Assembly: GCF_003711105.1 (NCBI RefSeq)
Contig: NZ_CP023865.1
Span: 4,799,001-4,863,000, forward strand
DNA: 64,000 nt
Source of the DNA: Actinoplanes teichomyceticus ATCC 31121
GTDB lineage: Bacteria > Actinomycetota > Actinomycetes > Mycobacteriales > Micromonosporaceae
Direction: 5' to 3'
A program made the position numbers and the translations under genes. The notes under the pieces were generated by a model, which worked only from the letters and a program-made list of their open reading frames with translations, ran no database searches and was not told the origin of the DNA. Shown here piece by piece: positions 43,933 to 58,457 of the stretch; within the stretch, counting starts at the first letter, position 1; the number at the start of each line of letters is the position of its first letter.

Positions 43933-45135
43933 TCAGCGACGGCGCTTCGGGTTGAAGCGGTGTGCCGCGGTCAGGGTGCGCGTGGACCAGCGCATCGCGT
44001 CCAGCGCCGGGACGGCCAGGTCCTCGGAACCGACCTCGCCGGCCTCGTAGGCGCGCACCGCGTTCAACACTTGGCCGAGGCGACCGGTTCCGTGGTTGAG
44101 CGCGTCCGAGACGTCAGCGGTGAGCGGCAGTTGCTCGGCCATCGCCGCCGGGGTGCTGCCCATCAATCGGGCCATCCCGGTGACCAGGCCGGACACGAAC
44201 GCCGCGCCGGGGTCGGCACCGAAGCGCGGGGCCAGGTTCTCGCACAGCCGGGCCTGGGTCAGCGCGGTGAGCAGCTGCTCCTCCGGCGCCTCGGCGACGT
44301 CGTCGACCACCATCAGGGTGGCCCAGCGGCGGATCCGGGTCAGGCCGACCAGCATGACCGCCTGGCGTACCGACGAGATCCGGCTGACCACGCCGGCCGC
44401 GACCGAGTTGCTGACCCGCAGGACGCGCAGGGCCAGGGCCGGGTCGCTCACGATGATGGAGGTGATCTTGTCGAGCGGGACGTCCGGGGTCATCAGGGCA
44501 GCCACCAGTTCCAGGCGGCGCAGCCGGGACGGGGAGAGGCTGGGCGTGCTGAGGACCTGGGGGCGGCTCAGGGCGTACCCCTGCCGCAGCTCCATGCCGT
44601 ACCGGTCGGCGATGGCGACCTGCTCGTCGGTCTCCAGGCGCTCCGCCACGATCTCGATGCCCGGGTACTGCCGGCAGGCGGCGACGATCTCGTCGAGCCG
44701 GCTCAGGTCGCCGTCGAGAAGGTCGAGTTTGACGTAGGAGGCGAGTCCGAGCAGTTGCTCGTGGCCGGAGCCCCAGACGAAGTCGTCCAGGGCGATCTTG
44801 TACCCGGCGCCGGCGAGCGCGGTGATCCCCTCGATCACCTCGTCGTCGACCGCGACCGTCTCCAGCACCTCCAGGACGACCTGCTCCGGCCCGAACGGCA
44901 GCGGCAGGCGACCGGTCACGAACTCCCGGGTGAGGTTGATGAAGCACGGCCGGTCACCGGCGACCTCGGCGATGCCGAACTCGGTGAACGCATTGATCAT
45001 CACGGTGCTGGTGGCATAGGTGTCCTGCCGGCCGGACGCCACGGCGTCCATGCGGCCGCGGAACAGCAGTTCAAACGCGACCACGGTGCCCTGGGCGTCG
45101 AAGATCGGCTGACGACCGACGTGCACCGCATCCAT
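43933..45135 (-). CDS. EAL-HDOD domain signalling protein
   Basis: The 400-residue protein opens VHVGRQPIFDAQGTVVAFEL, a degenerate EAL domain with ELL in place of EAL and DDFVWG instead of DDFGTG. A HDOD domain follows from about residue 195 (LVAALMTPDVPLDKITSIIV, LRVSNSVAAGVVSRISSVRQ). This is the YuxH/CdgJ architecture, in which the EAL part usually does not cut c-di-GMP and the protein acts through interactions, for example in motility control. ATG at 45135 is used; GTG immediately upstream is possible. It is divergent from the acyl-CoA synthetase. Confidence 0.9.
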   Translation of the reverse strand: MDAVHVGRQPIFDAQGTVVAFELLFRGRMDAVASGRQDTYATSTVMINAFTEFGIAEVAGDRPCFINLTREFVTGRLPLPFGPEQVVLEVLETVAVDDEVIEGITALAGAGYKIALDDFVWGSGHEQLLGLASYVKLDLLDGDLSRLDEIVAACRQYPGIEIVAERLETDEQVAIADRYGMELRQGYALSRPQVLSTPSLSPSRLRRLELVAALMTPDVPLDKITSIIVSDPALALRVLRVSNSVAAGVVSRISSVRQAVMLVGLTRIRRWATLMVVDDVAEAPEEQLLTALTQARLCENLAPRFGADPGAAFVSGLVTGMARLMGSTPAAMAEQLPLTADVSDALNHGTGRLGQVLNAVRAYEAGEVGSEDLAVPALDAMRWSTRTLTAAHRFNPKRRR

Positions 45136-45293
45136 CACCGGAATTCCCACGCCGACGCCATCGGCACAAAAACGGGCGACCTGACGAAATCCGCCCCGGA
45201 AACAAAGCCGAAACGGTGGGTTCCCAGGAAACCGCCCCCATGTTGGGATGAGACCGCCGTCACAGCACACCGTTTTGTAAGGGGAACCCCCGG

Positions 45294-46847
45294 ATGCTCA
45301 ACCTTTCCGTCCTGCTGGAGGACAGCGCCCGCCGCTACCCGGACCGCGCCGCCGTGGTGCTAGGCCCGCAGCGCCTGACCTACGCCCAGGTGGACGCGGC
45401 GGCGAACCAGGTGGCGAACATGCTGGTGGCACGAGGCATCCAGCCCGGCGACAAGGTCGCGCTCTCCTGCCCCAATCTGCCCTACTTCCCGATCGTCTAC
45501 TACGGGATCCTCAAGGCCGGCGCGGTCGTGGTGCCGCTGAACGTCCTGCTCAAGGGCCGGGAGATCACATACCACCTGAACGACTCGGAGGCGAAGGCGT
45601 ACTTCTGCTTCCAGGGCACCCCGGAGCTGCCGATGGGCGCCGAGGGGCACGCCGGGTTCGGCGACGCCGACGGCTGCGAGCACTTCTTCCTGATCACCGC
45701 GGACCCGGCGGCCGCCTCACCGATCGAGGGCGCCGAGACGCTCGGGCAGGCGCTGGCCGGGCACGCGCCGGCCTTCGAGACGGTGCTGCGCGCCGAGACC
45801 GACGCAGCGGTGATCCTTTACACCAGCGGCACCACCGGCCAGGCCAAGGGCGCCGAGCTGTCCCACTCCAACCTGGTGCTGAACGCGCTCACCTGCAACC
45901 GGTTGTTCGCCTCGCAGCCGGCCACCGACACCCACCTGTTGGTGCTGCCGCTGTTCCACTCGTTCGGCTCGACGGTCAACATGAACGCCGGGTTCTCGAT
46001 GGCGGCCACACTCGTGCTGCTGCCGCGGTTCGATGCGAACGCCGCGGTGCAGCTGCTGCAGAGCGAGAACGTGACATTCTTCGCCGGCGTCCCGACCATG
46101 TACTGGGGCCTGCTGAACGCCCTCACCGAGAATGAGGACATCGACGTGGAACGGATCGCCCGCAACATGCGGGTCGCCGTCTCCGGCGGCTCCAGCCTGC
46201 CGGTCGAGATCATCAAGGCGGTCCGGGAACGTTTCGGGGTGACCATCCTGGAGGGATACGGCCTGTCCGAGACCTCCCCGGTCGCCACGTTCAGCGACCC
46301 GGACAGCGAGCCCCGGCCCGGCTCGATCGGCATCCCGATCTGGGGCGTCGAGGTGAAGCTGATCGATCCCGAGTGGAACACCGTCAGTGGCGTCGACGAG
46401 ATCGGCGAGATCGCCATCCGCGGCCACAACATCATGCGCGGCTACTACAACCGGCCCGAGGCGACCGCCGAGGTGATGCGCGACGGATGGTTCCGCACCG
46501 GGGACCTGGCCCGCCGCGACAAGGACGGCTATTACTACATCGTCGACCGGGCCAAGGACATGATCATCCGGGGTGGCTTCAACGTCTACCCACGGGAGGT
46601 CGAGGAGGTGCTGCTGACCCATGAGGCGGTTTCCCTGGCCGCGGTGATCGGCGTGCCGCACCCGAGCCACGGCGAGGAGGTCAAGGCGTTCGTGATCCTC
46701 AAGCCGGGCGCCACGGTCACCGAGGACGATCTGGTGGCCTGGGGCAAGGAGCAGATGGCCTCGTACAAGTACCCGCGGATGGTGAGCATCGTGGAGTCGC
46801 TGCCGATGACCGCCACCGGCAAGCTGCTCAAGCGCGAGCTGAGCTGA
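45294..46847 (+). CDS. Acyl-CoA synthetase (AMP-dependent, FadD-like)
   Basis: The 517-residue enzyme has the AMP-binding P-loop YTSGTTGQAKGAELSHSNL, the A5 region LEGYGLSETSPVATF, the A7/A8 motifs WFRTGDLARRDKDGYYYIVD and RAKDMIIRGGFNVYPREVEE, and the catalytic Lys in ATGKLLKREL near the C-terminus. This places it among long- or medium-chain fatty acid:CoA ligases that activate carboxylic acids through an acyl-adenylate. Exact chain length is not readable. ATG at 45294 follows AAGGGGAA. A hairpin terminator follows. Confidence 0.93.
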   Translation: MLNLSVLLEDSARRYPDRAAVVLGPQRLTYAQVDAAANQVANMLVARGIQPGDKVALSCPNLPYFPIVYYGILKAGAVVVPLNVLLKGREITYHLNDSEAKAYFCFQGTPELPMGAEGHAGFGDADGCEHFFLITADPAAASPIEGAETLGQALAGHAPAFETVLRAETDAAVILYTSGTTGQAKGAELSHSNLVLNALTCNRLFASQPATDTHLLVLPLFHSFGSTVNMNAGFSMAATLVLLPRFDANAAVQLLQSENVTFFAGVPTMYWGLLNALTENEDIDVERIARNMRVAVSGGSSLPVEIIKAVRERFGVTILEGYGLSETSPVATFSDPDSEPRPGSIGIPIWGVEVKLIDPEWNTVSGVDEIGEIAIRGHNIMRGYYNRPEATAEVMRDGWFRTGDLARRDKDGYYYIVDRAKDMIIRGGFNVYPREVEEVLLTHEAVSLAAVIGVPHPSHGEEVKAFVILKPGATVTEDDLVAWGKEQMASYKYPRMVSIVESLPMTATGKLLKRELS

Positions 46848-46863
46848 CCGGCGCGCGAACCCG

Positions 46864-46891
46864 CGCCCGGCGGGACACACCCCGCCGGGCG
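46864..46891 (+). terminator. Hairpin terminator after the acyl-CoA synthetase gene
   Basis: An 11-bp perfect stem (CGCCCGGCGGG with its complement) with loop ACACAC begins 17 bases after the stop codon. Confidence 0.85.
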
Positions 46892-46912
46892 CCCCGGCGC
46901 CTGCAGCGCGCC

Positions 46913-47190
46913 CTGAAGACAGCGCTTCGAAGACCGTGCGCCTTGAAGACGGCGCCTTGAGGACCGCGCCTTGAAGACGGCGCCTCGAGGACCGCGCCTT
47001 GAGCGAGCGCGCCTTGAAGACCGCGCCTTGAACACCGCTCGCCCTGCGGACCGCAGCACACGCTGAAGACCGCAGCGCTGAAGACCACAACGCACGCTGG
47101 AGGCCACAGCACACGCTGGAGACGGAGCACACGCTGAAGACGGAGCACACGCTGGAGACCACAGCACACGCTGAAGAACCAAGGTAGGGA
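46913..47190. repeat. Degenerate short repeats based on GAAGAC
   Basis: Units such as CTTGAAGACCGCGC (14-17 bases, 46913-47035) pass into CACACGCTGAAGACGGAG (17-18 bases, 47055-47175). Spacing is irregular and copies vary. Long minus-strand open frames cross this region (for example to 47669) but encode only Ser/Arg/Ala repeats and are not regarded as genes. The rest of the gap to 47390 holds no other recognisable feature. Confidence 0.7.
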
Positions 47191-47391
47191 GGAAAGGACC
47201 GCGGCACGCGGCGAAGACCGCGCCGCCTGAGGAAGCACCACGGCAACCGGAACGGACGGCGGCACAGCGCAGGACCTCGCCACCCAGGGGTAGCGCGGCC
47301 CGGGCTCACAACAACGGGCCGCAGCACGCCGGAAAAACCGCACCACACCGAAAAGACCAGAGCACGGAAAGAGCAGGTAAGAAGCCGTCCA

Positions 47392-48012
47392 ATGATCGTT
47401 TGCACCGGTGCCGCACAGTGGACGGGCAGGGACCCCTGGCGTACGGAGGCAAGCGTGATCCCAGCCCTCGCGCAACGGACCTCGGTGCTCAGCACCGGCG
47501 GGGACGGCGCGGGCGTGGCCGCCACCACGACGTCCGCGACCCGAGCCAGCCGGCAGGTCGGCTCCCCGGAGGTCCGGCGCGCGGCCGTGCAGCGCGTCAG
47601 CAAGCCCGCGGACGCCCTGGTCATCACGGAGCGGCGCGTCCCGGAGGTGCGCGCGGCGGCTGGCTCCACGGCCTACGACCACAACGGCGAGGTGAGGTCC
47701 ACACCAGCTTCCGGCAACCGTCCGATCATCTCCCCGGCGGCCGGTCCCGGCACCGGCGGCGCTACGTGCGCCGGGACGACCGGCCAGAGGCCGTACCGGA
47801 AGGTGGTCGGCCCGCAGCGCCCCGGGAAGGCCGACCGGAGGGAGATGGGCTCGGAGCGCACCGGCCGCAGCGGCGCAGCACCGGCAAGAACCCGGAGCGA
47901 CGGCACCACGCCGGACAGGACCCGGAACACCGCTGCCGGGAAGCGGGCGTACCGAACGTGGCCGACCCGGACCGCCCCGGCTCCCCGCTCACCGGCGGCG
48001 CGGCGCCGATGA
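47392..48012 (+). CDS. Uncertain hypothetical ORF ahead of the kinase operon
   Basis: This 206-codon frame starts ATG-ATC-GTT and has mainly G/C third positions in its first half. Its TGA overlaps the next start as ATGA, the same coupling used elsewhere in this operon. Against it, the product is Arg/Thr/Ala-rich, the second half looks like low-complexity sequence, no domain is recognised, and no ribosome-binding site is clear. In related PknG-type loci a glutamate-binding lipoprotein gene is common near here, and this is not one. It could be a leader region or a fast-evolving gene. Confidence 0.3.
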   Translation: MIVCTGAAQWTGRDPWRTEASVIPALAQRTSVLSTGGDGAGVAATTTSATRASRQVGSPEVRRAAVQRVSKPADALVITERRVPEVRAAAGSTAYDHNGEVRSTPASGNRPIISPAAGPGTGGATCAGTTGQRPYRKVVGPQRPGKADRREMGSERTGRSGAAPARTRSDGTTPDRTRNTAAGKRAYRTWPTRTAPAPRSPAARRR

Positions 48013-49190
48013 CCTCGCCTCCGGTCGCCTCCGCCGACGCGGAACTGGCGCGTCTCGAAACCGCCGTGCAGGCGATCACCCGCAACCTCGTCGAGCTGGA
48101 CGAGCACCCCACCCGCAAGGATCTCGACAGCAGAAGCCTGACCGGCCGGACGGCCAGCGAGTGGGCCGACGCGAGCGCCGCGCTCGGCACGCTGTGGGAC
48201 GGGTACCGGATGCTCACCGAGTCGATCACCCGCGCCCGGTTGCTGCGCGGGCAACGCCGGCTCGGCGACGCCGACCGGGCACGCTACGTACACGAGGTGC
48301 TCGGTCCGTCGATCGTGCTCTCCACCAGCAGCGTGCCGCTCGCGCAGCGCGGCCTGCTCGGCGCCGGGCAGGTGACCGCGACCTGCTCCCCCGCCGAGCT
48401 GCTGGCCGCGATGGAGCGGGCGTTCGCCACCGCGGTCGACGTGGTGACCCGGGCGGGTGAGGCGTGGCGGATGCTCCTGCCGGCCGCCGCGGAAGCTGCC
48501 GCCGGGCTGCGCGAGCTGCGCACGAGCGGCGCCCCTGGCCCCCTGGGCGACCAGGCGGACCGGTTGCTCGGCGAGCTCACCGCAGCGCTCGCCACCGATC
48601 CGCTGGGCGCCGAGCCGGCGGTTCTGGACCGGGTGGGTGACCTGATCCGCCGGGCGCAGGCGGAACGCGACTCGGCCGCCGAGTTGCGGGCGTCACTGAC
48701 CCGCCGGCTGGCCCAGGCCAGGGAGCGGGCGGACGAACTGGACCGGGCCGGCCGGGCCGCCGCGGAGGCGCACGCTCGGGTCAGCGGCCGCTTCCCGGAG
48801 GCCCGGATCGCCACGGTACGCCGGTTGAATCTGCGCCCCGACCTGGCCGCTATCGAGGCTCTCGCCACCGCCGGGCAGTGGGCGCTGATCAGTCCGCGGC
48901 TGGCCCGGTGGAGCCGGGAGGCGGCGGAACGGCTGGCCGCCCTGCAGGCCGTGACCGTCCACAACGACCGGCTGCTCGCCGAGCGCAACGAGCTGCGCGG
49001 CCGGCTCGACGCCTACCAGGCGAAGGCACTGCGGCACGGGCTGGGCGAGCACCCCGCCCTGATCCCGCTCGCCGAGCGGGCCCGCGCCGGTCTGTACACC
49101 GCGCCGTGCGAGCTGGAACAGGCTCGGGCGGCCGTCAACGCGTACCAGGAAGCGCTCACCGCCACGATCACGAGGGATGCCCGGCCATGA
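48009..49190 (+). CDS. Coiled-coil protein, first secure gene of the kinase/phosphatase operon
   Basis: The 393-residue protein is almost all alpha-helical, rich in Ala, Leu, Arg and Glu. Long coiled-coil segments include about 215-290 (SLTRRLAQARERADELDRAG) and 320-350. It opens LARLETAVQAITRNLVELDE and HPTRKDLDSRSLTGRTASEW, a pattern I associate with helical proteins encoded next to PknG-like kinases in actinomycetes. No signal peptide or membrane span is present, so it is probably a cytosolic scaffold. ATG at 48009 is used; GTG at 47958 is in frame. Its stop overlaps the kinase start (ATGA). Confidence 0.8.
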   Translation: MTSPPVASADAELARLETAVQAITRNLVELDEHPTRKDLDSRSLTGRTASEWADASAALGTLWDGYRMLTESITRARLLRGQRRLGDADRARYVHEVLGPSIVLSTSSVPLAQRGLLGAGQVTATCSPAELLAAMERAFATAVDVVTRAGEAWRMLLPAAAEAAAGLRELRTSGAPGPLGDQADRLLGELTAALATDPLGAEPAVLDRVGDLIRRAQAERDSAAELRASLTRRLAQARERADELDRAGRAAAEAHARVSGRFPEARIATVRRLNLRPDLAAIEALATAGQWALISPRLARWSREAAERLAALQAVTVHNDRLLAERNELRGRLDAYQAKALRHGLGEHPALIPLAERARAGLYTAPCELEQARAAVNAYQEALTATITRDARP

Positions 49191-51820
49191 GATGCCAGCG
49201 GAACTGCCCCGGGACCATCGAGGACGGCTACTGCGACACGTGCGGCCTGGCCCCGGCCAGAGGCACGCCGGCCGGGCCCGCCGCCACGACGCCGACCGCG
49301 GGCGCGGCAGCAGCGAACGCCACAACGCCGGGCGCGACAACAGCAAACGCCGCGACACCAGGCGCGACAACAGCAAACGCCGCGACACCAGGCGCGACAA
49401 CAGCGAACGCCGCGACACCAGGCGCGACAACAGCGAACACGGCGAAGGCGACCGCCACAGCGCCGGACGGCACAACGCCGGGCGCGCCGAGGCTGGCCGC
49501 GGCGACGACCGGCCCGGCGGGATGCCGGCGTGCCGGCTGCGGCGGCACCATCGAGGACGGCTACTGCGACACGTGCGGCCTGGCGCCGGCCGCCGACACA
49601 CCGGCGCCCCAGCCGGTCAGCGGAGCAACCGGCGGCGGAACACCGGCCGGTGCGGCGTCCGGCGGAACACCGGCCGGCGGGACATCGGGCAGTGGTACAC
49701 CCGTGCCGCAGCCGCGCAGCGCGACCGGTCCGTCGGCCCGCGCGGACACCCGCGGCTCGTCGCGCAGCGGCGCGCTGTCCACCCGTACCGGTGGCAGCCG
49801 GCGTGGCAGCGGCCGCAGCGGGTCCAGCCGCCGGTTCGGCAGCGGCCTGGTGGAGATCGCCCCGATCGCCCAGGTGGACCCGGCCGGCACACTGATGGCC
49901 GACCCGCAGGTGCCGGAGTCGAAACGGTACTGCGCCAAGTGCAACAATCCGGTCGGCCGGTCCCGCGGCGACCGGCCGGGCCGTGCCTCCGGGTTCTGCC
50001 CGCACTGCGGCGAACCCTTCAACTTCACCCCGAAACTGGCCCCGGGTGACCTGGTCGGCGGGCAGTACGAGGTGGCCGGCGCACTCGCCCACGGCGGCCT
50101 GGGCTGGATCTACCTGGCCACCGACCGCAAGGTGTCGAACCGCTGGGTGGTCCTCAAGGGCCTGCTCAACTCGGGTGACGCGGACGCCCTGGCCGCCGCT
50201 CTGGCCGAACAGCGGTTCCTGGCCGAGGTCGAGCACCCGAACATCGTCAAGATCTACAACTTCGCCGAGCACGACGGCGCCGGTTACATCGTGATGGAGT
50301 ACGTCGGCGGCAAGTCCCTGAAGGACCTGCTCAAGGAGCGCCGGGAGGCGAACGGCGGGGTCACCGACCCGCTGCCGCCGGAGCAGGCCCTGGAATACCT
50401 CATCGAGATCATGCCCGCGTTCGGCTACCTGCACGAGCGCGGGCTGATCTTCTGCGACTTCAAGCCGGACAACGTGATCCAGTCCGGCGACCAGATGAAG
50501 CTGATCGATCTGGGCGGCGTGGTGCACGTCGACGACCAGGACGCGGCGATCTACGGCACGACCGGTTACCAGGCGCCGGAGATGGCCACCGACGGGCCGT
50601 CGATCGCCTCCGACCTCTACACCATCGGCCGCACCCTGGCCGTGCTGACCACCGACTTCCGCGGCTACCAGAGCACGTTCAAGGAGAGCCTGCCGGACCG
50701 CGACTCGTTCGAGGTCTACCGGCGGCACGAGTCGTTCTACCGGCTGCTGGAGCGGGCCACCCGGCCCGACCCGGCGCAGCGTTTCGTCGACGCCGCCGAG
50801 ATGCAGGAGCAGATGCTCGGGGTGCTGCGCCAGGTGATCGCGGCGCAGGGCACGCCGAAACCGGCGCCGTCCAAGGTGTTCACCGGTGAGCTGCGGGCCG
50901 ACCTGCGCGCGGACGCGCCGCGCTGGCCGGACCTGCCCACCCCGCTGATCGACCTGACCGACCCGGCGGCCGGCTTCCTCGCCTCGATCACGGTGACCGA
51001 CCCGGCCGAGGTGCTGGCGCTGCTGCGGCACGCCCCGCAGGAGAGCACCGAGGTGCGGCTGCGGGCGCTGCGGGCCCGGATCGACCTGGGCGCGCGCAAC
51101 GGCTCCTACGACGACGCGGTCCAGGCGCGCGACCGGCTCGCCGCCGCCGAGGGCGACGATTGGCGGCTGGCCTGGTACGACGGGTTGATCGCGCTGGCCA
51201 CCGAGGACTGGGCGGCGGCCCGGGCCCGATTCGACGCGGTCTGGTCGGCGTTGCCCGGCGAGCTCGCGCCCCGGCTCGCCCTGGGCTTCACCGAGGAGCT
51301 GGCCGGGCGGCACCCGGTGGCGGCCGGGCACTACGACGTGGTCAGCCGCACCGACCCGGCGTACACCACGGCCGCGGCCGGGCTGGCCCGTTGCCGGCTC
51401 GCCGGCGGGGACCGCGCCGGGGCGGTGGAGGCGTACCAGCGGGTGCCCGGGACCTCCTCGGCGTACGCGGTCTCCCAGGTGGGGGCCGTGCGGGCGCTGG
51501 TCCGCGCGCACCCGGCCGCCCAGGTGGACGTTCAATCGCTGGCCGACGCGGCGGCGCTGCTGGAACGCCTCGAGGTGGAGCGTGCGCAGCTCGCCGAACT
51601 GCGCGCCGAGCTGCTCGAACAGGCGCTGGCCTCGCTGCGGGGCGGGGCCCGGGTACCGGCCGCGGTGCTGGGCGGGGCCCGCACCGGCGACACCGGCGAA
51701 CGGGACGTGCGGTTCGCGCTGGAGGATGCGTACCGGGAGATGGCCCGTGCCGCGCACGGACCGGAGAAGATCCGCCTGGTCGATCTGGCGAACGCGGCAC
51801 GGCCGCGGACGCGTACCTGA
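49187..51820 (+). CDS. PknG-like Ser/Thr protein kinase with zinc ribbons and TPR region
   Basis: The 877-residue protein starts with two near-identical zinc-ribbon-like elements (TIEDGYCDTCGLAPA at about 9-23 and again near 120) separated by a Thr/Ala linker of 10-residue repeats. A second Gly/Thr/Ser linker leads to a rubredoxin-like pair (YCAKCNNP and FCPHCGEPF, about 245-280) and a kinase domain (about 288-548). The kinase has a Gly-loop ALAHGGLGWIYLA, Lys in WVVLKG, catalytic loop FCDFKPDN, and DLGG in place of DFG. A TPR-type C-terminus (about 605-870) follows. Rubredoxin-kinase-TPR is the architecture of mycobacterial PknG, which senses amino-acid status and phosphorylates an FHA protein (GarA). 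Confidence 0.92.
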   Translation: MRCQRNCPGTIEDGYCDTCGLAPARGTPAGPAATTPTAGAAAANATTPGATTANAATPGATTANAATPGATTANAATPGATTANTAKATATAPDGTTPGAPRLAAATTGPAGCRRAGCGGTIEDGYCDTCGLAPAADTPAPQPVSGATGGGTPAGAASGGTPAGGTSGSGTPVPQPRSATGPSARADTRGSSRSGALSTRTGGSRRGSGRSGSSRRFGSGLVEIAPIAQVDPAGTLMADPQVPESKRYCAKCNNPVGRSRGDRPGRASGFCPHCGEPFNFTPKLAPGDLVGGQYEVAGALAHGGLGWIYLATDRKVSNRWVVLKGLLNSGDADALAAALAEQRFLAEVEHPNIVKIYNFAEHDGAGYIVMEYVGGKSLKDLLKERREANGGVTDPLPPEQALEYLIEIMPAFGYLHERGLIFCDFKPDNVIQSGDQMKLIDLGGVVHVDDQDAAIYGTTGYQAPEMATDGPSIASDLYTIGRTLAVLTTDFRGYQSTFKESLPDRDSFEVYRRHESFYRLLERATRPDPAQRFVDAAEMQEQMLGVLRQVIAAQGTPKPAPSKVFTGELRADLRADAPRWPDLPTPLIDLTDPAAGFLASITVTDPAEVLALLRHAPQESTEVRLRALRARIDLGARNGSYDDAVQARDRLAAAEGDDWRLAWYDGLIALATEDWAAARARFDAVWSALPGELAPRLALGFTEELAGRHPVAAGHYDVVSRTDPAYTTAAAGLARCRLAGGDRAGAVEAYQRVPGTSSAYAVSQVGAVRALVRAHPAAQVDVQSLADAAALLERLEVERAQLAELRAELLEQALASLRGGARVPAAVLGGARTGDTGERDVRFALEDAYREMARAAHGPEKIRLVDLANAARPRTRT
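49330..49450 (+). repeat. In-frame 30-bp repeat encoding GATTANAATP
   Basis: GGCGCGACAACAGCAAACG plus CCGCGACACCA, 30 bases, repeats four times within the kinase gene with single-base differences. It encodes a Thr-rich flexible linker between the two N-terminal zinc-ribbon elements. Confidence 0.85.
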
Positions 51821-51831
51821 GAGAAGGCAAG

Positions 51832-53589
51832 TTGATTCTGACCGACTGCGACTCCTGCGCCGAGGGGCGTGCCACCGGCGCCTCGTTCTGTGAGGCGTGC
51901 GGGCGCCCGCTGACCGAGCCGGCCGCCCGTGCCGCGGCCTCCGCCGCCGCGGATCCGGCTCCGGGCGGCGGTTGCGGCACGCCCGGCAGCATTCCGGGCG
52001 CAGGTCAGGATGGTTCCGGCAGGCCCGCCCCGGACCGAGACGTCTCCAGTACGCCCGAGACCGCCTCCGGCGATCCAGCCCCCTCCGGTACGCCCGAAAC
52101 GGCCCCGCGCGATCCGACGTCCTCCGCTGGGCCCCGAGCCGCCCCCGGCGATCCAGCGTCCTCCGCTGGACCCGGAAGCGTCCCGGGCCCGGACGAGACC
52201 GCGCCGGGTGCGAGCGGCGGCACGCCGGGTGCGGGCGGCGGCACGCCCGGCCCGGGCGGCGGCACGCCCGGCGTGGGCGGCACGCCCGGCCCGGGCGGCG
52301 ACGCGCCGGGGCGGGGCGGCCGTGACTGCCCGCACTGCGGGGCGTCCACGGCGCTGGACCCGGACGGGTACTGCCAGGAGTGCGGGATGCTGGCCGGCCG
52401 CCCACGTGACCACACCGAGGCGGACGGCGAGCCGGTGGCGGCCGCGGTCAGCGACCGGGGTCGCCGGCACCACCGCAACGAGGACGCCATGTGGCTGGCG
52501 GTCGGGGCGGACGCGGCGGACGTGGTGGTCTGTGACGGCGTGTCGTCGTCGTTCGACCCGGACGTGGCCTCCGAGGTGGCCGCGAGGACGGCCGGCGAGC
52601 TGCTGGCCCGCGCCCAGCATCCGGTCCGGCCCGCGCGCCCGGCGGCGGACGAGCCGACCGGCGAGCTGGCGAGGCCCCAACCGGCGCAGGCAGGCCCGCA
52701 ACAGGCCGGCCCGCGGCCCGGGACAGCCAGCCCGCAGCAAGCCCGACCGCAGCCCGCGCAGGCCGGTCCACAGCCGACCGGCCCGCAGCCCGCGCAAGCG
52801 GAACCGGAACCCTCGCCAACCCCGCCGGAGCCGGTCGGACCGGGGACGCAGCGAGCGGAAGCCGGCCCGCACCCGGCCGAGGAGGGTACCGAGGCCATCG
52901 CCGACCCGGACGCGCCGACCGAGCCGCTGGAGCCGGCCCGGTCCGAACCGGCGGAGCCGGCGCTGCCGGTCGCCGAGGTGGTCGCGATGGCGATCCAGGG
53001 CGCCGGCGCGGCGGTCGCCGCCCTGGCCGGCACCGGCGATCCGCGCCGGGCGGTGTCCAACCCGGCCTGCACCATCGTGGCGGCCGCGGTGCGCGGCCCG
53101 CACGTCGGCTTCGGCTGGGTGGGCGACAGCCGCGCCTACTGGGTGGCCGGCTCCGGCCCGGCCGAGCAGCTCACCGAGGACGACTCGTGGGCCCGGCACG
53201 TGATCGCGCTCGGTGTCGACCCGCGGGTGGCGATGAACGACCCGAAGGCGCACGCGATCACGGCCTGGCTCGGCGCGGACGCCGGCCGGATCACCCCGCG
53301 GATCGGGGCATTCACCGCGCGGGTGCCCGGCCACCTGGTGCTCTGCAGCGACGGGCTGTGGAACTACCTGACCGACCCGGCGGACTTCGGCGACGCGGTC
53401 CGTTCCGCGCTGCGGATCGCCACCGGCCCACGGCCGCTGCTCGAGGCGGCGCGCGCGCTGGTGGCGTACGCGAACTCCGCCGGAGGCGCCGACAACATCA
53501 CCGTGGCCATCCTCCCGGTGCCCCCGCCATCGCCGGCGGAAGCCGGAGGCGACGCCGAGCCCAGCGACAACGAACCGAGCGAAGCATAA
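51832..53589 (+). CDS. PP2C-type protein phosphatase with zinc ribbons and a large internal insert
   Basis: The 585-residue protein has a zinc-ribbon pair at the start (CDSCAEG with FCEACGRPL), a Gly/Pro/Thr-rich linker and another ribbon near 165-185 (CPHCGAS with YCQECGM). The phosphatase domain begins VSDRGRRHHRNEDAMWLAVG and VVCDGVSSSFD (metal-binding Asp), and ends GFGWVGDSRAYW, LCSDGLWNYLTDPADF and GADNITVAIL. About 110 residues rich in Pro, Ala and Gln (about 263-378) interrupt the domain. It should remove phosphates placed by the adjacent kinase. TTG at 51832 is the start, five bases after GAGAAGG, 11 bases after the kinase stop. Confidence 0.9.
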   Translation: MILTDCDSCAEGRATGASFCEACGRPLTEPAARAAASAAADPAPGGGCGTPGSIPGAGQDGSGRPAPDRDVSSTPETASGDPAPSGTPETAPRDPTSSAGPRAAPGDPASSAGPGSVPGPDETAPGASGGTPGAGGGTPGPGGGTPGVGGTPGPGGDAPGRGGRDCPHCGASTALDPDGYCQECGMLAGRPRDHTEADGEPVAAAVSDRGRRHHRNEDAMWLAVGADAADVVVCDGVSSSFDPDVASEVAARTAGELLARAQHPVRPARPAADEPTGELARPQPAQAGPQQAGPRPGTASPQQARPQPAQAGPQPTGPQPAQAEPEPSPTPPEPVGPGTQRAEAGPHPAEEGTEAIADPDAPTEPLEPARSEPAEPALPVAEVVAMAIQGAGAAVAALAGTGDPRRAVSNPACTIVAAAVRGPHVGFGWVGDSRAYWVAGSGPAEQLTEDDSWARHVIALGVDPRVAMNDPKAHAITAWLGADAGRITPRIGAFTARVPGHLVLCSDGLWNYLTDPADFGDAVRSALRIATGPRPLLEAARALVAYANSAGGADNITVAILPVPPPSPAEAGGDAEPSDNEPSEA

Positions 53590-53599
53590 GGAGTGCCGA

Positions 53600-54865
53600 G
53601 TGTCCTACCACGCCGAGGCTTTCCAGAACGAGTATCTCGCGATGGGTGCGAGCGAGGTGAACGCGATCGTCACCGTGTCGTCCTCGGGTGGCGACGGCGG
53701 CGGTCGCACGGCCGGCGCCACCGAGATCATCATCGTTGACGCGTCCGGGTCGATGCAGGCCGAGGGCCGGATGGCGGCTGCCCGGCAGGCCGCCAGGGCG
53801 GCGGTGGAGTGCATCGACGACGGTGTGCGGTTCGCCATCGTGGCCGGGGTCAGCACCGCGCAGCAGCTGTTCCCGGACCCGGGGCAGCTGGCCGTCGCGT
53901 CGCCGCAGTCGCGGGCCGACGCGGTCCGCGCGATCGACCGGCTGCAGGCCAGCGGCGGCACCGCGATGGGCGCCTGGCTGTTGCTCGCCGCGCGGCTGTT
54001 CGAGCAGCGGCCGGGCGACATCAAGCACGCCATCCTGCTCACCGACGGCGACAACGGCGAACGGCACGGGTACCTGGAGGGCGTGCTGGAGCAGGTCGCC
54101 GGCCGCTTCGTCTGCGACTGCCGGGGCGTCGGCACGAACTGGAAGGTCTCCGAGCTTCGCAAGATCGCCACGGCGATGCTGGGCACCGTGGACATCGTGG
54201 CGCGCCCGGAGGACCTGACCGCCGCCTTCCAGCAGATGATCACCGCGGCGATGGGCAAGACCGCCGCGGACGTGCACCTGAAGGTGTGGACGCCGGTCAA
54301 CGCCACGGTGCGCTTCGTCAAGCAGGTCGAGCCGCAGGTGATGGACCTGACCGGCAAACGGGCCGAGGACGGGCCACGGGCCGGACGCTACCCGCTCGGC
54401 TCCTGGGGCCGGGAGAGCCGTGACTACCACATCTGCGTCGATGTTCCGCCGGGCGGCGCCGGTGACGAGATGCTGGCCGCCCGGGTCTCGGTGGTCGAGG
54501 GCGACACCGTGCACGCGCAGTGCCTGGTCCGGGCGGTGTGGACCGAGGACACCGCGCTGTCCACCCGGATCAACCGGCAGGTCGCGCACTACACCGGGCA
54601 GGCCGAGCTGGCCGAGGCGATCCAGGAGGGCATCGCCGCCCGGGAGGCCGGCGACGACCGGACCGCGACGCTGAAGTTCGGCCGGGCCGCGCAACTGGCC
54701 CACCAGAGCGGCAACCGGGCCACCGAGGAGCTGCTGGCCAAGGTGGTGGAGATCGAGGACGCGGCGACCGGCACGGTCCGGATGCGGCGCCGGGTGAACG
54801 CCGCGGACGAGATGGCGCTGGACACGCAGAGCACCAAGACCGTCCGTGTCGGACGGTCCCAGTGA
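53600..54865 (+). CDS. VWA-domain protein
   Basis: The 421-residue protein carries a von Willebrand A domain (about 40-215) with the metal-ion-dependent adhesion site DASGS and further site residues in SGGTAMGAWLL and LTDGDNGE. A beta-rich middle (about 220-330) and a helical C-terminus (about 335-420, KFGRAAQLAHQSGNRATEEL) follow. Unlike its neighbours it has no zinc ribbon, and no signal peptide. In-cell VWA proteins bind partners through a metal-bridged contact. Linkage to kinase, phosphatase and FHA genes suggests it is a phospho-regulated binding component. GTG follows AAGGAG; the gap to the phosphatase gene is ten bases. Its stop overlaps the FHA start. Confidence 0.9.
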   Translation: MSYHAEAFQNEYLAMGASEVNAIVTVSSSGGDGGGRTAGATEIIIVDASGSMQAEGRMAAARQAARAAVECIDDGVRFAIVAGVSTAQQLFPDPGQLAVASPQSRADAVRAIDRLQASGGTAMGAWLLLAARLFEQRPGDIKHAILLTDGDNGERHGYLEGVLEQVAGRFVCDCRGVGTNWKVSELRKIATAMLGTVDIVARPEDLTAAFQQMITAAMGKTAADVHLKVWTPVNATVRFVKQVEPQVMDLTGKRAEDGPRAGRYPLGSWGRESRDYHICVDVPPGGAGDEMLAARVSVVEGDTVHAQCLVRAVWTEDTALSTRINRQVAHYTGQAELAEAIQEGIAAREAGDDRTATLKFGRAAQLAHQSGNRATEELLAKVVEIEDAATGTVRMRRRVNAADEMALDTQSTKTVRVGRSQ

Positions 54866-55491
54866 CCACACACGCCTGCCCGAACGGGCACGCCTCCACC
54901 GAGGCGGACTACTGCGACACGTGCGGGGCGCGGATCGGGGGCGCGGCGGCCCTGGCCGCCGAAGCCGCGGACCCCGGCGGGCCGTGCCCGAACTGCGGCA
55001 CCCCGCGCGCCGGCACGGCCCGTTTCTGCGAGGACTGCGGCTACGACCACACCACCGGCCAGGTGCCGCGGCTGACCGAGGCGCGGCCGGAACCGGTGAC
55101 GGCCGGGCGGTGGACGGTGACCGTCGCGGCCGACCCGGGATATTTCGCGATGAACGCCATCGAGGGCGTCTCGTTCCCGGCTGACGCCAAGGAGCGCACC
55201 GTGCCGCTGCCCGCGCCGCAGGTGCGGATCGGCCGCCGCAGCTCGTCGAAGGGCACCGCCCCGGAGATCGACCTGGCGCAGGAGCCGGCCGACCCGGGCG
55301 TCTCGCACGACCATGCCCTGCTCACCATCGACGTGGACGGCGTGTGGCTGGTGACCGACCTCGGCTCGACCAACGGGACGTACCTCAACGACGAGGAGCA
55401 GCCGTTGCCCGCCGGGCAGTCGCGGGCGCTGCGGGACGGCGATCGGGTGCACGTGGGCGCGTGGACCACCCTGACCCTGCACGCGCCCTGA
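54862..55491 (+). CDS. Zinc-ribbon/FHA-domain protein
   Basis: The 209-residue protein has two zinc-ribbon elements (CPNGHASTEADYCDTCGARI and CPNCGTPRAGTARFCEDCGY, about 6-68). A C-terminal FHA domain (about 108-205) follows, with the phosphothreonine-binding residues visible: Arg in VRIGRRSSSK, Ser-His in GVSHDHALL and Asn in DLGSTNGTYLN. The first ribbon shares YCDTCG with the kinase ribbons. FHA domains bind phosphothreonine, so this is the probable reader of the kinase, as GarA is for mycobacterial PknG. GTG at 54862 shares GTGA with the preceding stop. Last gene of the operon. Confidence 0.92.
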   Translation: MTTHACPNGHASTEADYCDTCGARIGGAAALAAEAADPGGPCPNCGTPRAGTARFCEDCGYDHTTGQVPRLTEARPEPVTAGRWTVTVAADPGYFAMNAIEGVSFPADAKERTVPLPAPQVRIGRRSSSKGTAPEIDLAQEPADPGVSHDHALLTIDVDGVWLVTDLGSTNGTYLNDEEQPLPAGQSRALRDGDRVHVGAWTTLTLHAP

Positions 55492-55498
55492 ATGCGCG

Positions 55499-55532
55499 GG
55501 CGCCGGGCCCGCCCCGTGGCCGGCCCGGCGCC
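55499..55532. terminator. Bidirectional hairpin terminator after the FHA gene
   Basis: An 11-bp perfect stem (GGCGCCGGGCC with its complement) with a 12-base loop begins eight bases after the FHA stop. It ends six bases before the stop of the convergent protease gene. Confidence 0.8.
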
Positions 55533-55537
55533 GCGGG

Positions 55538-56068
55538 TCAGCCGGCCCAGGCGTACGCGGCCGGGGCGACCGTGGCCGAGGTGGCGAAGCTGCGGTTGAC
55601 GGTGGCCGCCTCGGTGGCGTTCGGGTACGCGTTGGTGCAACTGACCGGCGCGCTGCTGCCGGACATCAGGTCGGCGCAGAGCCCGGTGCGGCGGTCCGGC
55701 AGCCCGAGGATGTGCCCGAACTCGTGCGCGGCGATCCGCGGCGGGTGGTACCCGTCGTTCACCGCCTCCCGGCCCATGTACCAGCGGCCGTTGCCCAGCG
55801 ACGTGGTGTACGTCCGGGGCCAGCCGTTGTCGGCGTACACCCGGATGTTCGGGGTCCGCCCGGCCGGTACCGGCTCCAGCCGCACGTTGGTGACCCGGCT
55901 GTTCCAGATCTGCGCGCCCTGGTTGACGACCGCGACGAACTCCTGCGCCTGGCTCGCGTCGTAGTACAGCACCCGGGCCGCGGCGTGCGCGGGGGTGGCG
56001 CCCGCCAGTTGGACGCCGGCGAGGGTCAGCGCGGTCACGATCGCGGCCGCCACTTTTCGCATCAGCAT
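55538..56068 (-). CDS. Snapalysin-like (M7) secreted metalloprotease
   Basis: The 176-residue product has a signal peptide (MLMRKVAAAIVTALTLAGVQ, cleavage after AHA) and the zinc motif HEFGHILGLPD, the extended HExxHxxGxxD form of family M7. YYDASQAQEF and ADLMSGSSAP are further landmarks, the latter being the Met-turn region. M7 proteases are the small neutral milk-clotting proteases of streptomycetes. Cys residues in GLCADLM and VSCTNAY probably pair. The ATG at 56068 is chosen because GAGGAGG lies six bases before it. It is divergent from the XRE-NB-ARC regulator, with a moderately AT-rich shared promoter region. Confidence 0.92.
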   Translation of the reverse strand: MLMRKVAAAIVTALTLAGVQLAGATPAHAAARVLYYDASQAQEFVAVVNQGAQIWNSRVTNVRLEPVPAGRTPNIRVYADNGWPRTYTTSLGNGRWYMGREAVNDGYHPPRIAAHEFGHILGLPDRRTGLCADLMSGSSAPVSCTNAYPNATEAATVNRSFATSATVAPAAYAWAG

Positions 56069-56216
56069 CGATGTCCTCCTCGGGGGATTCGGGGATGGCC
56101 CGACCCTACGAGAGAAAGCGACGTATATCGATGCGCTTCCCCATACCACTTGCCGCCTCCGACCCACGTGATGTCCGCCGCTGCGCGCTCGCGCGCCGAT
56201 GTGCTTTCTTCGTGCC

Positions 56217-58457
56217 GTGCCGGAATTCGGAAGCAGGCTGCGCGAGTTGCGACGGGCCGCGGGGCTCACCATGGAACAGCTCGCCGAGGCGTCCGGGGTG
56301 AGCGCCCGGGCGATCAGCGACATGGAGCGCGGGCACAGCCGGGCGCCGCAGGCACGTACCCTCGCCGCCCTGGCCACCGGCCTCGGGCTGGACCCGGGGC
56401 AGCTCGGCGACCTGGAGGACGTCGCCCGCCGGCGACGCGCCCACAGCGCCGGCCGGCCCCGGCTGTGCGAGCCGCCCCGCGCGATCAGCGACTTCGTCGG
56501 GCGCGCCGACGAGCTGGACCGGATGCGCCGGCACGCCCTCGCCGGTCTCGGTCCGGCCCCGGTCGCGGTGGTGCACGGGCAGCCGGGGCTGGGCAAGACG
56601 GCCCTGGCCGTACGCCTGGCCGACCAGCTGCGCGACCGCTATCCGGACGGTCGCTTCTACCTCGACCTGCGCGGCACCGACGCGGAACCGATGTCGGCCG
56701 GCGACGCCCTGGTCCGGCTGCTGCGCGCCCTGGAGGTCGGTCCGCGCCGCATCGCCGAGACCGACGACGAGCGCTCCAGCCAGCTGCGGGCCGTGCTGCG
56801 CGAGCGGCGCTGCCTGCTGGTGCTGGACAACGCCGGCAGCGAGGCCCAGGTCCGCCCGCTGCTGCCCAGCGAGGGCGAGAGCCTCGCCGTGGTGACCAGC
56901 CGGCGGGTGCTCGGCGGCCTGGCCGGCGTGGAACGGATCGCGCTGGCCCCGCTCGCCCCGCACGAGTCGGCCGCGCTGCTGCGGGCCATCGCGGTGCAGG
57001 CCGCCGACCCGCGGGCGGCCGCCGGAGTGGAGGCGGTCGCCCGGTTGTGCGGGCACCTGCCGCTGGCGCTGCGCATCGCCGGCACCCGGCTGGCCACCCG
57101 TCCGGCGTGGACGGTGGAGCACCTGGTGGCCCGGCTCGCCGACGCGGACCGACGGCTGGCCACCCTGACCACCGGCGACATCGGGGTGGCCACCGCGTTC
57201 GCGCTGTCCCACGCGCAGCTGAGCAAACCGGCCCGGGAGCTGTTCCGGCGGCTCGCGCACGTGCCCGGGGTGGACTTCGCGGCCACCCTCGCGGCGGTGC
57301 TCACCGGCGGTCACCCGGACGACACCGCGGACGGGCTGGACGAGCTGGTCGACCTGGGCCTGCTGCAACAGTCCGGACCGGACCGCTACCGTTTCCACGA
57401 CCTGATCCGGCTGTTCGCCGAGGAACGGTTGCGGATCGAGGAGCCGGCCGGGACCCGCGCGGCGACCGCCAAGAAGATGTCCGACTGGCTGCTGGAGACG
57501 GCGATCGTGGCCGGCCGCTGGTTCGAGCCCGGGTACGGCCGCCTGCCCGACGGCTGGGGCGGGCCGGTCGCGCTGGGCACCGCCGAGGAGGCGGACACCT
57601 GGCTGCAGGCGGAGCGGGCGAACTGGCTCGGCGCGATGCGCTCGGCGGCCCGCGGCGGGCAGTACCAGCTGGTCGTCGACGTGGCCGAGGCGATGCACTG
57701 GTACTCCGACAAGTACGTGCGCGCCGACTACTGGTACGAGGTGTACGGCATGTCCCGGGCCGCCGCGGCCCGACTGCCGGACCGGCGGCAGGAGGCGACG
57801 CACCTCAACTACTTCTCCTGGGCGGCGACGCACTGCGCCCGGCGTCCGGGCGAGGGCGCCGAGATCGCGATGGACGCCTACCGGATCGCGGCCGGGCTCG
57901 GCGACCTCAAGGAGCAGTCCTGGGCGCTGCGCTACGCCGGCGACGCCTGGCGGCACGGCGGGATGCCGGAACGGGCGCTCGACGCCTACCGGCGGGCCAC
58001 CGAGCTGGCCGACCGGGCCGGCGACCACGACGGCTACATCCAGCTGCGGCCCGGCATCGCCCGGGCGCTCATCGCGCTGGGCCGGCACGAGGAGGCGATC
58101 GAGGAGTGCGCCGCGACGCTGCGCGACATCGAGACCCGTCCGGTGGCGGCCCGACCGGAGCTGAGCGCGCGGGTCAGCGCGCACGGCATCGCGGCCGAGT
58201 CACTCGCCGAGAGCGGCCGGTGGGCGGAGGCGCTGCGCGAGGCGGAGCGGGCGATGCCGTACGCGGTCGAGTTCGGCTACCCCGGCTACCTCGGCGAGCT
58301 GCACCTGACGATCGGCCGGGCCCGGATGGCGCTCGGCCTGCGTGACGCGGCCCGGCCGGCGCTGCGCAAGGCCGTCGAGCTGCTCGACGATCTGCCGCAC
58401 CAGCGCTGGCGGCAACTGGCCCGGCAGGGGCTGGCCGCGCTCGGCGAGACCGCATGA
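56217..58457 (+). CDS. XRE-NB-ARC-TPR transcriptional regulator (AfsR-like)
   Basis: The 746-residue protein starts with a XRE helix-turn-helix (RLRELRRAAGLTMEQLAEAS, then GVSARAISDMERGHS). An NB-ARC-type ATPase follows with P-loop HGQPGLGKTAL and Walker B LLVLDNAGS near residue 205, then a winged region (PARELFRRLAHVPGVDFAAT). TPR-like helices run from about 460 to the end (PERALDAYRRATELADRAGD). Such STAND-class regulators are switched by nucleotide exchange upon ligand binding to the repeats. GTG at 56217 (PEFGSRLREL) is preferred; ATG at 56199 would add six residues. It is divergent from the snapalysin-like gene. Confidence 0.9.
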   Translation: MPEFGSRLRELRRAAGLTMEQLAEASGVSARAISDMERGHSRAPQARTLAALATGLGLDPGQLGDLEDVARRRRAHSAGRPRLCEPPRAISDFVGRADELDRMRRHALAGLGPAPVAVVHGQPGLGKTALAVRLADQLRDRYPDGRFYLDLRGTDAEPMSAGDALVRLLRALEVGPRRIAETDDERSSQLRAVLRERRCLLVLDNAGSEAQVRPLLPSEGESLAVVTSRRVLGGLAGVERIALAPLAPHESAALLRAIAVQAADPRAAAGVEAVARLCGHLPLALRIAGTRLATRPAWTVEHLVARLADADRRLATLTTGDIGVATAFALSHAQLSKPARELFRRLAHVPGVDFAATLAAVLTGGHPDDTADGLDELVDLGLLQQSGPDRYRFHDLIRLFAEERLRIEEPAGTRAATAKKMSDWLLETAIVAGRWFEPGYGRLPDGWGGPVALGTAEEADTWLQAERANWLGAMRSAARGGQYQLVVDVAEAMHWYSDKYVRADYWYEVYGMSRAAAARLPDRRQEATHLNYFSWAATHCARRPGEGAEIAMDAYRIAAGLGDLKEQSWALRYAGDAWRHGGMPERALDAYRRATELADRAGDHDGYIQLRPGIARALIALGRHEEAIEECAATLRDIETRPVAARPELSARVSAHGIAAESLAESGRWAEALREAERAMPYAVEFGYPGYLGELHLTIGRARMALGLRDAARPALRKAVELLDDLPHQRWRQLARQGLAALGETA

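Follow-up and report, generated by a model that had tools for sequence, protein, structure and literature searches.

Mycobacteria and corynebacteria sense amino acids through the glnX-glnH-pknG operon. In this short form, as far as the accessible text of the relevant papers goes, GlnH binds aspartate or glutamate, GlnX is thought to relay the signal, and the kinase PknG phosphorylates GarA/OdhI with involvement of its TPR domain and N-terminus (PMC6069109, PMC9769921, PMC8546545). A second described system is the archaeal Arn system of Sulfolobus, in which the zinc ribbon of ArnA holds the VWA protein ArnB and the FHA domain of ArnA binds phosphothreonine in the ArnB C-terminus (PMC12852372, PMC6509490, PMC7472852, in the portions accessible to us); the ribbon is a docking part in the solved complex (PMC12852372). 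Here we describe a locus of Actinoplanes teichomyceticus ATCC 31121 that resembles both systems. It lies in a stretch of 64,000 nucleotides (the window, whose numbering is used for all positions) and comprises five genes, encoding a mainly helical protein (CC), a PknG-family Ser/Thr kinase, a PP2C phosphatase, a VWA protein and an FHA protein (Table 1). With confidence a little above even, we favour a reading in which these genes belong to an extended actinomycete PknG operon whose sensor pair has been lost in this strain, and in which PknG, PP2C and the FHA protein act on the VWA protein as a hub, in an Arn-like manner.

Like the published operon, the locus encodes a PknG with rubredoxin and TPR domains, and its congeneric counterparts carry glnX-glnH upstream. 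It differs by the addition of CC, PP2C, VWA and FHA genes and of extra kinase ribbons, and by the deletion of glnX-glnH. A first-pass annotation had described the five genes as a tightly joined, self-contained operon. The close packing is confirmed, the genes of CC-pknG-PP2C-VWA-FHA overlapping at the first junction (ATGA) and the last (GTGA) and lying 11 and 10 bases apart at the second and third, and the Pfam domains agree with a writer (kinase), an eraser (PP2C), a reader (FHA) and a VWA protein within one conserved unit. Self-containment did not hold: the set represents five of the seven genes of a sensor-driven operon from which the sensor genes have been deleted. The single complex proposed in that annotation stays conjectural.

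The kinase combines the rubredoxin (PF16919), kinase (PF00069) and PknG_TPR (PF16918) domains in one protein, all above the Pfam cut-offs, as in the PknG family, and the rubredoxin family has a single match in the whole genome (8.29-Mb contig). Residues K324, D424, N429 and D441 of the kinase, D218, D235-G236, D432, D507-G508 and D554-N555 of the phosphatase, and the phosphothreonine-pocket residues R125, S148 and N171 of the FHA protein are each identical in 104 of 104 aligned relatives. The VWA protein carries VWA_3 and VWA_3_C, its metal site (DxSxS, T121, TDG) is invariant (n = 30 aligned), and it is 90-92% identical to its closest relatives, with 90-91% for the proteins of Actinoplanes octamycinicus, A. 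oblitus, A. ianthinogenes and A. siamensis. Up to E 0.1, CC matched nothing in Pfam, NCBIfam or PADLOC, and it is predicted to be nearly all-helical (mean predicted local distance difference test score 94.8).

The predicted fold of the VWA protein is that of ArnB, with the VWA domain inserted in a β-sandwich and followed by a C-terminal helix bundle. The profile of the FHA protein matches ArnA (8s05_C) across ribbon 2 and the FHA domain (8e-11). The locus thus resembles Sulfolobus ArnA-ArnB in its split-sandwich VWA protein with helix bundle, its zinc-ribbon FHA partner and its kinase and phosphatase partners; nutrient control, shown in Sulfolobus, would be a further likeness. Unlike the archaeal system, it is bacterial, forms one operon, uses PknG in place of ArnC, bears an SxxT tail after the bundle and has ribbons on the kinase and phosphatase too. 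Since its phosphatase is PP2C and not the PP2A type, the operon may be said to work like an Arn module, not to be one. The likeness to ArnA/ArnB is well supported, as are the anatomy, conservation and loss scar of the operon. An ArnB-like fold is also reported for a Catenulispora acidiphila VWA protein solved alone (PDB 4FX5, caci_2163; PMC6509490, PMC12852372), for which the accessible text of these two papers mentions no PknG operon.

The order glnX-glnH-CC-pknG-PP2C-VWA-FHA was found in 44 of 44 congeneric loci compared (from 42 of the 55 other genomes of the genus with PknG, plus G273 and G362), with glnX-glnH upstream of the pknG set and in the same direction. It recurs in 13 of 14 loci of other Micromonosporaceae, picked from the 46 genomes outside the genus that had a CC match (121 searched); the fourteenth (L087) is a 6.5-kb contig. 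Across the class, the PknG rubredoxin domain was detected in 95 of 246 genomes, and 80 stretches from these 95 were surveyed, a count that leaves aside PknG forms without rubredoxin, as in corynebacteria. Seven genes in order were present in 37 stretches and five genes with glnX, or glnX-glnH, downstream in nine, all of family f15 and one of them (L165) with only a VWA fragment. PknG stood alone or with glnX/glnH only in 13, including eight of the nine stretches of the Mycobacteriaceae-like family f2. The others comprised 18 partial sets, several cut at contig ends, one with five genes at a contig start, and two without PknG, which stem from matches below the family cut-off. Family f2 is probably Mycobacteriaceae, and f17 probably Streptomycetaceae.

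We also scanned named genomes with the VWA alignment, which confirmed at least 568 relatives, and kept the best 80. All of these best 80 adjoin operon genes as far as their contigs extend: 59 show all seven genes in order, and the others are contig-cut or have glnX downstream; in L291, glnX is on the opposite strand. They include loci of Actinoplanes, Streptomyces, Kitasatospora, Kutzneria, Saccharothrix, Nocardia and Actinomadura, and also of Acidimicrobiia and a Solirubrobacteraceae bin. The genes are therefore linked, and not scattered as they would be had the first-pass annotation been wrong to expect co-occurrence, both in the 44 congeners and in the best 80 of the at least 568 VWA loci. 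Because the same order recurs in many families, it is not due to chance. Within the genus, PknG, GlnX and VWA_3_C are all absent from the same four of 60 genomes. VWA_3_C was found in four of four genomes with a PknG rubredoxin match and in one of 24 without (G014, a draft), and G031 has a second VWA_3_C copy apart from its PknG matches. In the midpoint-rooted kinase tree, the three-gene kinases of the Mycobacteriaceae-like family lie beside a seven-gene kinase of the same family, which suggests that their three-gene operon arose by reduction. We found no description of the seven-gene operon in the open-licence literature searched, to the extent that its text was accessible, most subscription papers, preprints and supplements being outside that search.

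Reduced copies occur as well. L049 has CC-PknG-VWA without PP2C and FHA, and its VWA tail has a zinc-ribbon motif in place of SxxT; L063 has PknG-VWA-GlnX, and L073 has glnX-glnH-CC-PknG-VWA-FHA without PP2C. One Mycobacteriaceae-like genome (G244) has three PknG matches, one at a seven-gene locus (L067) and another at a three-gene locus (L068).

The deletion of the glnX-glnH sensor pair in this strain is well supported. In each of 10 congeneric loci tested from the 44, an AMP-binding ligase gene precedes glnX at a short distance and has 84.5-93.2% identity to the window ligase, whereas in the window it is followed by about 1.16 kb without glnX or glnH. The retained promoter block aligns with the region leading up to and including the glnX start in six congeners, with 84-89% identity over 94-109 bases (nhmmer 4.4e-13), and in other congeners, in shorter or weaker pieces, with 69-93%. 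Further downstream, three collinear blastn pieces (47596-47705, 47769-47847 and 47936-48060) correspond successively to the final part of glnH and the first part of CC (alignment against the 44 congeners; matched congener positions about 2230-2730). About 1.8 kb, namely most of glnX and the 5' part of glnH, is missing between the promoter block and the glnH remnant. At the protein level the remnant gives only a chance-level tblastn match (GlnH, E 3.3, at the right place) and no significant profile score. Since only this scar (47381-48008) represents a pknG-linked glnX-glnH pair, the window locus is a derivative of the published operon and a non-standard member. The low-complexity stretch between the ligase gene and the promoter block had no match in the plasmid collection, and a genome search matched only the stretch itself. 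The interval 46848-47381 holds seven copies of TGAAGAC and also GCACACGCTG repeats.

Unlinked paralogues are kept, namely glnX2 and glnH2 as a pair at 3.05 Mb (GlnX 39%) and, at 5.12 Mb, GlnX3 on its own, both GlnX proteins retaining the GlnX C-terminal motif. Among 59 other genomes of the genus, 18 have a GlnX2 orthologue. The glnX2-glnH2 pair (L103:7196-11735) follows a gene for a SpoIIE phosphatase with an ANTAR domain and precedes one for an RDD membrane protein; perhaps GlnX sensors drive further outputs too. The motif itself, R-x-x-[EDN]-[YF]-x, stands at the very end of 130 of 130 GlnX proteins, 118 of which end in Arg (best protein per locus, score ≥150, L039-L182, with the own-genome loci L103 and L104 included). 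It is a candidate ligand of the PknG TPR domain, the manner of contact between GlnX and PknG being called elusive in the accessible text of PMC9769921.

The ribbons form a second link among the operon proteins. As the first-pass annotation had noted, kinase, phosphatase and FHA protein all begin with zinc-ribbon elements, and the motif YCDTCG is shared by kinase and FHA protein. The kinase has it twice. At least two CxxC pairs occur in the N-termini of PP2C and FHA proteins at every locus counted (for FHA, loci with a VWA match), and none in the VWA and CC N-termini. Where the locus includes PP2C and FHA, 104 of 109 kinases have a ribbon ahead of the rubredoxin domain (111 loci, two without a readable kinase N-terminus); where CC, PP2C, VWA and FHA are absent, one of 13 PknG kinases has it (L057), and partial loci give eight of 13. 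Of the five kinases scored as lacking it, that of L141 is masked and that of L182 cut, L166 has a ribbon outside the pattern, and L165 and L168 have none in the stretch inspected. By these counts the extra kinase ribbon goes together with the added genes, which supports the proposed role of the ribbons as a common link. The two near-identical kinase ribbons are separated (window 49300-49500) by Thr-Pro- and Thr-Thr-rich repeats (NAATPGATTA), possibly an autophosphorylation region that could recruit the FHA protein.

The tail of the VWA protein offers a candidate phosphosite. S411 and T414, within the final 11 residues, are invariant (n = 30 aligned). An SxxT motif lies within the final 45 residues in 103 of 104 VWA proteins of five-gene loci, compared with 227 of 2100 random 45-mers from the bodies of the same proteins, and within the final 40 residues in 80 of 80 VWA proteins of the named loci. 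The predicted model has low confidence at the very end of the tail, as for a flexible end.

From this we infer a course of phosphorylation, docking and input around a VWA hub. In the intact form, the Asp/Glu-binding lipoprotein GlnH and the membrane transmitter GlnX would activate PknG, as published for the short form. PknG would phosphorylate the C-terminal bundle or tail of the VWA protein, with Thr414 as the candidate site; the FHA protein, docked by its ribbon on the VWA protein, would clamp the phosphothreonine, and PP2C would remove the phosphorylation. The ribbons of kinase, phosphatase and FHA protein may serve as plugs for one VWA hub, which is the simplest reading given the precedent of the ArnA ribbon. 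The VWA branch would then be a second PknG output besides GarA/OdhI, and the ArnC/ArnA/ArnB/PP2A logic of Sulfolobus would be connected to an amino-acid sensor. For the present strain, the input may come from the unlinked GlnX2-GlnH2 or GlnX3, the activity may be sensor-independent, or the input may have been lost.

Table 1. Features of the PknG operon and its surroundings (window positions).
Feature	Position	Strand	Basis or remark
CC, mainly helical protein, fold family unassigned	48009..49190	+	393 aa
PknG-family Ser/Thr kinase: two N-terminal ribbons, rubredoxin, kinase, PknG TPR	49187..51820	+	877 aa; Pfam
Kinase zinc ribbon 1 (C3-C19)	49193..49243	+	sequence
Kinase zinc ribbon 2 (C113-C130), near-copy of ribbon 1	49523..49576	+	sequence
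PP2C phosphatase, two N-terminal ribbons	51832..53589	+	585 aa, TTG start; PP2C_2
PP2C zinc ribbon 1	51847..51900	+	sequence
PP2C zinc ribbon 2	52327..52383	+	sequence
ArnB-like VWA protein: VWA-split β-sandwich, C-terminal helix bundle, tail	53600..54865	+	421 aa
VWA tail S411-T412-K413-T414, candidate phosphosite	54830..54841	+	S411, T414 conservation
ArnA-like zinc-ribbon FHA protein	54862..55491	+	209 aa; FHA, Zn_Ribbon_1
FHA protein ribbon 1 (C6, H10, C18, C21)	54877..54924	+	invariant in 19 aligned
FHA protein ribbon 2 (C42-C59)	54985..55038	+	C42, C56 invariant, C45 nearly, in 19 aligned
AMP-binding ligase, flanking synteny anchor, outside the system	45294..46847	+	Pfam AMP-binding
Low-complexity stretch, ligase to promoter block	46902..47380		outside congener alignment
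Retained operon promoter region, ribosome-binding site, first glnX codons (GTG 47455)	47381..47496	+	congener matches
Decayed glnH 3' end	47596..48008	+	collinear blastn pieces
G+C-rich hairpin past last stop	55488..55545	+	-43.3 kcal/mol, z -2.69

Several observations weigh against an Arn-like VWA hub. The match to ArnA is barely above that to GarA by E-value (8e-11 versus 1e-9), and an FHA domain (1uht) outranks both. The structural relatives of ArnB are placed mostly outside such multi-phosphorylation processes in the accessible text of PMC12852372, and the phosphosites of ArnB sit in a helix pair of its bundle, whereas the bacterial SxxT tail is a different stretch. Two f15 loci (L166, L168) hold CC, PknG, PP2C, FHA and a downstream glnX with no VWA found, and L165 has the same set with VWA only as a 29-bit fragment; since these loci keep kinase, PP2C and FHA protein without an intact VWA, an indispensable VWA hub is disfavoured, although two of the three (L165, L168) also show no kinase ribbon. 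Twenty further stretches of the class, mostly from the Mycobacteriaceae-like family, stand outside the survey count, and the role of CC is left unexplained. Finally, a GarA/OdhI orthologue scoring above the curated cut-off is encoded elsewhere in the genome. Its output may therefore persist, and PknG may act there alone, with CC, PP2C, VWA and FHA merely localising or restraining the kinase. Such plain PknG/GarA control would also fit the complete PknG domain set of the kinase and the GlnX/GlnH/PknG/OdhI chain described in the accessible literature (PMC9769921, PMC6069109, PMC8546545). We take it seriously but hold it to be unlikely, as it leaves unexplained the co-operonic FHA protein with an intact phosphothreonine pocket (104/104), the near-invariant VWA tail and the kinase ribbon that tracks the added genes.

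Instead of docking, the ribbons might sense redox state or metal, a role that has been proposed for the rubredoxin of PknG. PknG activity does change when the rubredoxin metal site or redox state is perturbed (PMC8546545, PMC6069109, accessible text); we nevertheless find a sensor role rather improbable, given the docking of the ArnA ribbon in the solved complex (PMC12852372) and an extra kinase ribbon that follows the presence of the added genes. We give little credence to the idea that the five genes are a relic, decaying without signal input after the loss of glnX-glnH. The scar, its glnH remnant without significant protein-level signal and the absence of PknG and GlnX from four of 60 genomes of the genus, which means that the system can be lost, would suit a relic, but none of the five frames is interrupted, the catalytic and binding residues listed above agree with those of 104 of 104 relatives, the VWA protein is 90-92% identical to its nearest relatives, and GlnX2 and GlnX3 persist with the GlnX C-terminal motif. 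It is very improbable that the locus serves in conflict or secretion, as a module of the TerY-P or threonine-phosphorylation type. TerY is a VWA protein, and we know of no ribbons or amino-acid sensor in the threonine phosphorylation pathway of the type VI secretion system (T6SS). In their accessible text, the respective papers describe the TerY-P triad as TerY, a kinase and a PP2C (PMC4978471), the same kind of parts to which the operon adds an FHA reader, and the T6SS pathway as PpkA with a VWA domain, PppA and Fha1 (PMC3224232), again kinase, PP2C, FHA and VWA domain, but with VWA inside the PpkA kinase, whereas here kinase and VWA are separate genes. Against such a module, the VWA, FHA and CC proteins had no PADLOC match up to E 0.1 (PADLOC being the only comparison of the VWA protein with the TerY type), the PP2C matches were weak (E 0.002), and the kinase matches, mostly to PD-T4-6 kinases, lay over its kinase domain. 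No DNA-processing gene occurs among the five neighbours scanned, and the congeners have an amino-acid sensor instead.

The operon had also been said to end in a terminator. A strong hairpin does follow the FHA gene, an equally stable fold arising in one of 200 shuffles; its function as a terminator is plausible only, because it has no T-run and abuts a convergent gene. That gene encodes an M7 metalloprotease and is accompanied, within 55538-58457, by the gene for a regulator with HTH, NB-ARC and TPR domains, which we take to be AfsR-like. Upstream, an HDOD/EAL protein is encoded at 43933-45270.

Our broadest proposal, tentative and in our judgement somewhat short of even, is that actinomycetes possess a bacterial ArnA/ArnB nutrient switch within the PknG amino-acid pathway, in which PknG would write phosphorylation onto the tail of one VWA hub, PP2C would erase it and the ribbon-FHA protein would read it, each of the three bearing a shared ribbon as plug; the mycobacterial three-gene operon would be a reduced form, and this strain a natural sensor-deletion mutant. 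In the open-licence literature searched, as far as accessible, PknG signalling is studied in the three-gene form. If many actinomycetes, Streptomyces included, use the extended form, the PknG pathway has a missing output branch. The A. teichomyceticus strain offers a natural experiment without the linked sensor. If the proposal is true, mechanistic tests could be taken directly from the work on archaeal Arn, and nutrient switches of this design would occur in two domains of life.

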